In this document: positions 62,714 to 64,000 of the stretch, piece after piece
How positions within the stretch are numbered: the stretch's first letter is position 1
Layout of the letters: each line of letters starts with the position of its first letter
From: Paractinoplanes durhamensis
Lineage (GTDB): Bacteria; Actinomycetota; Actinomycetes; Mycobacteriales; Micromonosporaceae
NCBI RefSeq assembly: GCF_016862175.1
Contig: NZ_BOML01000010.1
Location: 1-64,000 of the forward strand
Direction: 5' to 3'
Length of the DNA: 64,000 nucleotides
Notes under the pieces: generated by a model
The model's database searches: none
Told to the model about the DNA's origin: nothing
The model's input: only the letters and a program-made list of their open reading frames with translations
Program-made: the position numbers and the translations under genes

Positions 62714-63508
62714 GTGGCCGAGGTGTACGGCGAACGAGTCCGACCGCGACGGCGGTGGGGACGGCGCCTCTTGATCACACTCATCGTGCTGCTGCTGATC
62801 GTGGCGGGCCTGGCGGCGGTGGCCGACCGGGTCGGTAAGAACTACGCCGAGCGCATGATCAGCGACAAGGTGGCCGAGCAGGTCGCCAACCAGAAGGCGA
62901 CCAGCGAGAAGCCGGACGTCACGGTCGAGGGCTTCCCCTTCCTGACCCAGGTCGCCCGCGGTCACTACGACGAGATCAAGATCGGGCTGGCCAACTTCTC
63001 CGGCCCGGCGGGCAACGACCGCACGATCAAGATGAAGCTTCTGGACGTACGCGCCAAGGACGTCGCCGCCCCGCTGGACACGATCCGCTCCGGCAACGGC
63101 AACATCGTGGCCGGTTCGGTGACCGGCTCCGGTTTGATCGACTATCCGCAGCTCGTCGAGCTGGTCGGCCAGCCGGGCGTGAAGCTGGCCGCCAAGAACG
63201 GCAAGCTGACCGGTACGGCGCCGGTGCAGGCGCTCGGCCAGACCTTCACCGTGACCGGCACCGCGGCGTTCACGGTGAAGAGCGGAAACGTGGTCCAGGT
63301 GCGTTTCAGCGATGTGACGGCCGAGGGTCTGCCGGACAACGCGCTCGTCAAGGGCCTGATCAACTCGTACGTCAATAAGTTGGCATTTGATCTTCGGGTT
63401 CCGGCGCTGCCGCTCAAACTCACCGTTCAGAAGGTCGAACCGACCGCCGAGGGCCTTCGGGTGACGGCCGGCGCGTCGGACGTGGCGCTCAACTCGAGTG
63501 GCCTGTGA
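62714..63508 (+). CDS. DUF2993 membrane-anchored protein
   Basis: A 264-residue protein with one N-terminal membrane helix (residues about 20-42) preceded by an Arg-rich stretch, and an extracytoplasmic domain with the DUF2993 pattern (VTVEGFPFLTQVARGHYDEI, KLDVRAKDV-type, VSFSDVTAEG-type). Possible lipid-binding or transport-related role. GTG at 62714 has GGGAGG 5 nt upstream. Stands alone. Confidence 0.75.
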   Translation: MAEVYGERVRPRRRWGRRLLITLIVLLLIVAGLAAVADRVGKNYAERMISDKVAEQVANQKATSEKPDVTVEGFPFLTQVARGHYDEIKIGLANFSGPAGNDRTIKMKLLDVRAKDVAAPLDTIRSGNGNIVAGSVTGSGLIDYPQLVELVGQPGVKLAAKNGKLTGTAPVQALGQTFTVTGTAAFTVKSGNVVQVRFSDVTAEGLPDNALVKGLINSYVNKLAFDLRVPALPLKLTVQKVEPTAEGLRVTAGASDVALNSSGL

Positions 63509-63564
63509 CCCCCGACTCGATCCCGGATGGTGGTCGAGGCTGTTCCGTGGTCTGGAACCGCTGG

Positions 63565-63661
63565 TAGGGTCCAATCTCATGAGCCCCTTGCTCACGAAAA
63601 GGCGCGCGGTCGACCTGTGCCGCGTGGCCGCGTGCCTGTGTTGCCCCGTCATCTGACGGGG
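63565..63661 (+). promoter_or_regulatory. Leaderless promoter and attenuator of the sulfurtransferase gene
   Basis: TAGGGT (63565-63570) lies 8 nt before the leader-peptide ATG, so transcription probably starts at the ATG. CCCCGTC (63644-63650) pairs with GACGGGG (63655-63661) around the leader stop codon, and GCCACTG (63661-63667) can pair with CAGTGGC (63703-63709). Ribosome stalling at the preceding Cys codons could shift these pairings. Confidence 0.6.
63579..63656 (+). CDS. Cysteine-rich leader peptide
   Basis: A 25-residue peptide, MSPLLTKRRAVDLCRVA then ACLCCPVI, with Cys at 14, 19, 21 and 22. Leaderless polycysteine-encoding short frames act as cysteine-responsive attenuators upstream of sulfur genes in mycobacteria, and this one precedes a thiosulfate sulfurtransferase gene by 163 nt. 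It is probably a sensor of charged Cys-tRNA rather than a working protein. Confidence 0.75.
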   Translation: MSPLLTKRRAVDLCRVAACLCCPVI

Positions 63662-63819
63662 CCACTGTGCTGAGCAATTCTTAGCTCCTTCCCATCGCCC
63701 GGCAGTGGCGCCGTCGCACAAGCCCGAGTCCCAACTTTCCATGGGTCCCGCGCGGGGTGCGACAGAACCCTCGTGCGCTGACTCTCCCCCATCTCTCACC
63801 TCACCAAGGGAGTGAACCG

Positions 63820-64000
63820 ATGAGTCGCGACACCGCACTCGTTTCGGCCGACTGGGCCGAGAAGAACCTCGACGCCGCGGGCGTTGTCTTCGTCGAGGTC
63901 GACGAGGACACCACCGCCTACGACGGTGGCCACATCCCCGGCGCCGTCAAGATCGACTGGAAGCAGGACCTCCAGGACCCGGTCCGCCGGGACTTCGTCA
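63820..64000 (+). CDS. Thiosulfate sulfurtransferase (rhodanese), 5' part
   Basis: The first 60 residues of a rhodanese-type sulfurtransferase, cut by the window edge. N-terminal VSADWAEKNLDAAGVVFVEV and YDGGHIPGAVKIDW match the actinobacterial CysA/SseA-type enzyme, which transfers sulfur from thiosulfate to thiols. AGGGAG precedes the ATG. It is regulated through the cysteine-rich leader upstream, by inference. Confidence 0.85.
   Translation, partial: MSRDTALVSADWAEKNLDAAGVVFVEVDEDTTAYDGGHIPGAVKIDWKQDLQDPVRRDFV

Follow-up and report, generated by a model that had tools for sequence, protein, structure and literature searches.

A leaderless cysteine-sensing attenuator of the Ms5788A leader family as the best reading of a short frame before an actinobacterial sulfurtransferase operon

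Does the short frame with four cysteine codons in front of a sulfurtransferase gene belong to a switch that responds to cysteine, and if so, is it an independent counterpart of the mycobacterial polycysteine leaders or the same regulator? The frame lies at the end of the window, the whole 64,000-nucleotide stretch of DNA that was analysed, in a genome of 10.5 Mb. This genome was taken as a member of the Actinoplanes/Paractinoplanes group on the basis of its sulfurtransferase, which shares 93% identity with the enzyme of Paractinoplanes atraurantiacus and 89-91% with those of eight other Actinoplanes or Paractinoplanes. The best reading of the locus is a leaderless cysteine-sensing attenuator before the sulfurtransferase. 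We give a probability of roughly 0.7 to the reading that this leader, a member of the Ms5788A family, acts as an attenuator with a putative response to cysteine. The following elements were recognized.

63565..63570, + strand: -10 element TAGGGT (TANNNT); TANNNT stands here in 62/62 leaders, and the genus consensus is TAnnnT
63579..63656, + strand: leader frame MSPLLTKRRAVDLCRVAACLCCPVI with its stop; NCBIfam NF042933, E=2.2e-17, 62.4 bits, cut-off 45
63643..63650, + strand: region 1, 5' arm of the stop-codon hairpin, GCCCCGTC; pairs with GACGGGGC at 63655-63662
63655..63667, + strand: region 2, GACGGgGCCACTG; pairs with region 1 or region 3
63703..63715, + strand: region 3, CAGTGGCgCCGTC; pairs with region 2
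63713..63719, + strand: GTCGCAC, 5' arm of helix 3:4, overlapping region 3; pairs with region 4
63757..63763, + strand: region 4, GTGCGAC, 3' arm of helix 3:4; pairs with GTCGCAC
63773..63784, + strand: conserved GTGCGCTGACTC; its complement lies at 63822-63833, where the sulfurtransferase gene starts, with no covariation
63806..63812, + strand: Shine-Dalgarno (SD) sequence AAGGGAG of the sulfurtransferase gene, from the sequence; predicted paired in the modelled states
63820..64000, + strand: start of the sulfurtransferase gene (two rhodanese stretches); PF00581 E=3.7e-33

The frame comprises 25 codons plus TGA, with Cys at codons 14, 19, 21 and 22, and the last three make up the stretch CLCC. 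The initial annotation had described it in this way and had placed its ATG 8 nt after the -10 element, and both statements were confirmed directly in the sequence. In all of the 62 distinct Micromonosporaceae leaders a TANNNT motif starts 12-14 nt 5' of the ATG (in L033, L094 and L149 the distance refers to an in-frame ATG that lies 6-9 nt 5' of the start chosen by the script). An SD-like motif precedes the leader in 30 of the 62, and those inspected were the AGGG of TAGGGT itself. Leadered translation of the frame with AGGG as its SD was rejected because TANNNT is conserved and the SD-like motif is not. For Actinoplanes sp. SE50/110, a published study maps TAnnnT as the -10 consensus, and the 1179 transcription start sites classed there as leaderless account for 14.03% of the CDS (PMC7682106). 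The sequence comparison thus supports a leaderless start of the leader.

NF042933 is the Ms5788A family of Cys-rich leader peptides, and the peptide also matches the wider NF042934, putative leader peptide. When the whole genome was searched with NF042933, the leader (E=5.8e-16) was the sole match at E<=0.001. At the same threshold the family was found in 55 of 60 whole genomes of relatives (40 over the cut-off). Of 200 genomes sampled from the order, 176 had a match (53 over the cut-off), as did 26 out of 396 sampled from the phylum (13 over the cut-off); the control genomes gave 0/14 in each of these three surveys. Judged from the sequence matches, chance is excluded as the source of the leader peptide.

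Conservation in the peptide is not limited to cysteine. The segment LT(K/R)RRA(V/I)DLCR is kept in 62/62 Micromonosporaceae leaders with synonymous changes, which suggests that selection extends past the Cys codons, and a role of the nascent chain is possible. Cys19 and Cys21 are present in all 62, and the window's Cys22 is Arg in 52 of them. The codon of Cys21 is TGT in 62/62, although across 36 long GC3-rich frames of the window 16 Cys codons out of 89 are TGT. At the Lys-Arg codons of the leader (63597-63605), AAA occurs in 41/62 and AGG in 34/62; both are uncommon in the long GC3-rich frames of the window (AAA 31 vs AAG 354, AGG 59 vs CGG 420).

The gene at 63820 encodes a rhodanese-domain protein, so the leader does stand before a sulfurtransferase, as had been proposed. 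The gene runs past the window to position 64668 of the contig (C10), and a DUF1416 gene (PF07210 E=1.7e-39) follows. Upstream of the leader lies LmeA, and farther off are GlnR and an acetyltransferase that is MshD (NCBIfam E=8.8e-92). The arrangement DUF1416, rhodanese, LmeA, GlnR and MshD returns in another genome of this taxonomic order (G207; L050, L163), which has a polycysteine leader and a transposase between LmeA and GlnR. LmeA and rhodanese are also present at the leader locus of a same-class genome (L164). Among the 29 loci L049-L077 of the phylum survey, the leader is followed in 25 by a sulfurtransferase 69-84% identical to that of the window; in L074-L077 no such sulfurtransferase follows. 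Starting from 80 named sulfurtransferase loci, a leader was found at 73, by a strict pattern within 700 nt at 54 and by a looser one within 1300 nt, whose matches were judged by eye, at 19 of the remaining 26. Neither pattern gave a leader at L114, L115, L116, L117, L121, L138 and L142.

The initial annotation had taken the locus as an independent case of the mycobacterial logic in a distant genus. This did not hold, because the curated family, the following sulfurtransferase and the neighbouring genes are all shared, and on this sequence evidence the window leader is an orthologue of the mycobacterial Ms5788A-type leader.

Some variation was seen around these loci. In L118, L126 and L127 (Mycobacterium, Nocardia) a membrane-protein-like frame of about 154-160 aa, which we take to be DUF4395-like, separates the leader from the sulfurtransferase gene, unlike in the window, where the gene comes directly after the leader. 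The same genome encodes a second sulfurtransferase, 57% identical (L159, C53:59833-60666, - strand). No leader was seen in the 600 nt upstream of it, which were scanned for frames with Cys near the end; one Cys frame there was rejected as a leader since it does not resemble that of the window. Two further short frames were noticed in this genome. One (L007, C6:16810-16863, - strand), MTAAVDRRFVARRHVDYGRVRSAMCPAY, matches NF042936, the Ms4527A leader, at E=8e-5, below the cut-off, and the gene after it is presumably a nitrite/sulfite reductase. The other (L004, C13:361145-361192, - strand) ends in HLISRRYLDLCRHAGSRGRCSPS, matches NF042934 at E=4.1e-4, below the cut-off, and is followed by what looks to us like an amino-acid permease gene. 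A leader such as that of L007 stands before nirA/Msmeg_4527 in Shell 2015 (PMC4633059).

For M. tuberculosis and M. smegmatis the same study describes a leader ahead of cysA2 (Rv0815); in the latter species it is occupied by ribosomes (PMC4633059). The locus studied here shares with this Ms5788A-type leaderless polycysteine frame its peptide family and a -10 element adjoining the start codon, the sulfurtransferase and DUF1416 operon, and LmeA, GlnR and MshD nearby. It differs in its number of Cys codons, three or four where the mycobacterial type has a long Cys run, in a Cys region without complementarity to the SD, and in the helices 1:2, 2:3 and 3:4 between leader and gene. Cys leader peptides before Mycobacterium cys operons were predicted by Seliverstov 2005, and the short Cys-codon frame before cys genes, no intrinsic terminator seen and the suggestion of Rho all resemble the present case; conserved hairpins were not found there for Mycobacterium, whereas exclusive helices recur in Micromonosporaceae here (PMC1262725). 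In the open-licence PMC literature we found no publication on the leader in Micromonosporaceae.

The leader RNA from 63579 to 63840 folds better than its shuffles (z -3.81, 0/200). An Rfam search of 63400-64000 gave two matches at E up to 1, and a known RNA family was rejected as both were far below the gathering score. No clear overall structure emerged when RNAalifold was applied to mixed alignments, so the helices were tested singly. The hairpin over the stop codon and a pairing that competes with it, both pointed out in the initial annotation, were recovered in the window and recur in relatives. In the hairpin, helix 1:2, 63643-63650 pairs with 63655-63662 over 8 bp (-17.0 kcal/mol). The competing helix 2:3 joins 63655-63667 to 63703-63715 by 12 pairs around one G-G mismatch; its duplex energy of -27.7 kcal/mol, which includes an extra U-G pair, was reached by 0/100 dinucleotide shuffles of the downstream sequence. 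Together with 3:4, these helices are predicted to be mutually exclusive, and they recur across Micromonosporaceae. GTGGCC at 63624-63629 with GGCCAC at 63660-63665 had also been considered as the competing pairing, and was dropped and not counted because the 2:3 helix is longer.

The set used for comparison was cut from 69 loci to 62 sequences by removing five duplicates (L020, L079, L082, L084, L086), L120 (pattern unmatched) and L047 (no gene start found by the script). For L033, L094 and L149 the excised sequence began at an internal ATG, and the upstream ATG was used for L033 in the alignment. L149 has no region 3 anchor and is absent from the cross-genus helix comparison and from the stalling model, which covers 61 sequences.

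Among the 34 Actinoplanes sequences, 99.3% of the cells are paired for 1:2 and 93.0% for 3:4. Taken together, these two helices contain two pairs changed on both sides, which 4/500 shuffles reach, although an alignment slid by +3 columns likewise gives two such pairs; their covariation score is reached by 0/500 shuffles. Gapped cells (9 sequences in four pairs of 3:4) were set aside in this count. Helix 2:3 has 93.4% of its cells paired in Actinoplanes, with no both-side change there and a result no better than that of its shuffles. Across genera, where three sequences with an extra C were excluded from the fixed-register count and 58 remained, 31 sequences have A-U and 20 have G-C at position 10 of this helix, and 25 have C-G and 26 have G-G at position 6. 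Helix 2:3 thus appears to be partly rebuilt across genera. In 35/62 sequences at most 5/100 shuffles reach the 2:3 duplex, and 26 of these 35 are among the 34 Actinoplanes. When regions were cross-paired, those of Actinoplanes paired best with their own partners; region 2 of Micromonospora preferred region 3 of Asanoa (-24.9) over its own (-20.8). Helix 3:4 is built from other bases in both Asanoa (CTC with GAG), in three Catellatospora (CGTCGCC with GGCGACG, one with a U-G change) and in a subclade of six Actinoplanes (CGTACGC with GCGTGCG). It is weak in L095, L109 and L111, and the three-helix scheme is absent from L111, L149 and partly L094 among the Micromonosporaceae sequences compared.

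The loop within helix 3:4 (63722-63756) carries CCCGTGATCC and TGGGTCCCGCGCG in most of the relatives shown. Its sequence is kept across genera beyond the needs of a plain hairpin.

The effect of a ribosome was modelled by a mere block of unpaired bases. For the window, the expected pairs in 1:2, 2:3 and 3:4 were 7.9, 0.2 and 6.6 without a ribosome, 0, 12.8 and 0.0 with the ribosome at the Cys21 codon of CLCC, and 0, 0 and 6.4 with the ribosome on the stop codon. Of the 61 sequences, 52 had at least 5 expected pairs in 1:2 as free RNA, 9 had them in 2:3 and 24 in 3:4; under modelled stalling the corresponding numbers were 0, 53 and 6. In the model, the exchange of 1:2 for 2:3 on stalling is general, and a well-formed 3:4 is predicted in only 24/61 free RNAs.

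A classical trp-type attenuator has four regions with exclusive helices, and its 3:4 helix is a terminator with a U-tract. Like it, the present RNA has four regions, exclusive helices 1:2, 2:3 and 3:4, and control codons directly before region 1; this arrangement was found in the window, but not in every relative. Unlike it, the leader frame here appears to be leaderless, the control residue is cysteine, and 3:4 lacks a U-tract. Where the arms are exact, as in 42 of 62 sequences, no U-tract follows 3:4 and at most three T occur in the 8 nt past region 4, so 3:4 was rejected as a canonical intrinsic terminator. The 28 nt before the SD contain 16 C and 1 G in the window, and 13.9 C and 3.9 G on average. 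Such a C-rich, G-poor stretch would suit Rho, but would also suit a ribosome site.

Transcription would start at the ATG of the leader, and ribosomes would translate it immediately. With ample charged Cys-tRNA the leader would be finished, region 2 would be held by 1:2 or by the terminating ribosome, 3:4 could form, and the sulfurtransferase and DUF1416 genes would be expressed at a lower level. With charged Cys-tRNA in short supply, the ribosome would stall at Cys19-Cys22 and cover region 1; 2:3 would then pair, 3:4 could not close fully, and the operon would be expressed. As the output step, premature transcription termination at or after 3:4 is slightly favoured over a translational output. 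It may occur through the hairpin without U, or through Rho acting on the stretch before the SD.

The alternative for the output step is attenuation at the level of translation, as in mycobacteria, where a stalled ribosome reportedly (Canestrari, 2020) blocks structures that hide the ribosome-binding site. Structure would here keep the sulfurtransferase gene from being translated by hiding its SD and start codon until a stalled ribosome frees both. Fifteen mycobacterial-type loci were compared, 8 of them from named Mycobacterium or Mycolicibacterium and 7 from other genomes of the same order; polycysteine codons and CAACAGGAG are visible in this type. The Cys tract pairs with the SD region at -13 kcal/mol or better in 12 of the 15, and in 6 of the 15 this pairing is matched by at most 10/200 mononucleotide shuffles. 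The Micromonosporaceae gave such a pairing in 3/62 at p<=0.05 (median p 0.52), and the window gave p 0.93. The hiding arm would here be GTGCGCTGACTC together with the sequence that follows it, not the Cys codons. Attenuation at translation fits the predicted pairing of SD and start, the conservation of GTGCGCTGACTC in Actinoplanes, where 95.7% of the cells pair with the gene start, and the view published for M. smegmatis (PMC9031893). Against it, the Cys region lacks complementarity to the SD region, the helix with the coding start shows no both-side change in Actinoplanes, and release of the SD by stalling was not seen in the thermodynamic model, either for the window, whose SD is predicted paired in every state, or for the 62 sequences: on average the SD was unpaired with a probability of 0.15 in free and 0.16 in stalled RNA, and access rose by more than 0.2 in 1/62 and fell in 1/62. 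We consider this alternative unlikely. The RNA switch appears to be wired differently from that of the mycobacterial-type loci. The earlier interpretation was partly supported, peptide and operon being shared and the RNA logic apparently not. What is new in this orthologue is the wiring, which looks like a distinct variant.

Two other explanations centre on the peptide. The chain LTKRRAVDLCR might sense a small molecule or aid stalling, with the Cys codons mattering little; its invariance in 62/62 leaders through synonymous changes, the replacement of Cys22 by Arg in 52/62 and same-class leaders that terminate in MLCR would agree with this. The retention of Cys19 and Cys21 in every leader, up to seven or eight Cys codons in mycobacterial-type leaders, and a region 1 that starts directly past the Cys codons speak against it, and we hold arrest by the nascent peptide to be very improbable. 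That the frame encodes a small protein acting in trans, with incidental structures, has amino-acid conservation alone in its favour; its constant place before one operon and the recurrent exclusive helices make this hardly credible. The cysteine-responsive attenuator is supported because the family match, the spread of the leader and its constant place before the operon agree with the pairing and covariation of 1:2 and 3:4, a 3:4 rebuilt from other bases, a 2:3 that beats its shuffles in 35/62 and the modelled swap. It is weakened because 2:3 shows no both-side change in Actinoplanes, Micromonospora cross-pairs with Asanoa, 3:4 is well formed in 24/61 and has no U-tract, SD access is unchanged, and L111, L149 and L094 deviate. 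The leader, the conserved place of its -10 element, the operon and three recurrent helices that are predicted to be unable to coexist are all seen at the sequence level.

In conclusion, a supposed lone case has become one orthologous regulator that is spread through the order and also occurs in another order within the class. Tentatively, and with somewhat less than even confidence, we suggest that actinobacterial families retained peptide and operon but rewired the RNA switch, and that the peptide may aid stalling. In mycobacteria the Cys codons would pair straight with the SD; in Micromonosporaceae they would control a trp-like three-way switch that ends in a 3:4 hairpin without U and with a conserved loop, the peptide being the constant part. 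If the difference in wiring is true, one sensor peptide and one target operon would be served by two RNA switches. It would then become testable whether hairpins without U or Rho end transcription in high-GC actinobacterial leaders, and how attenuators swap their mechanism while keeping their signal.
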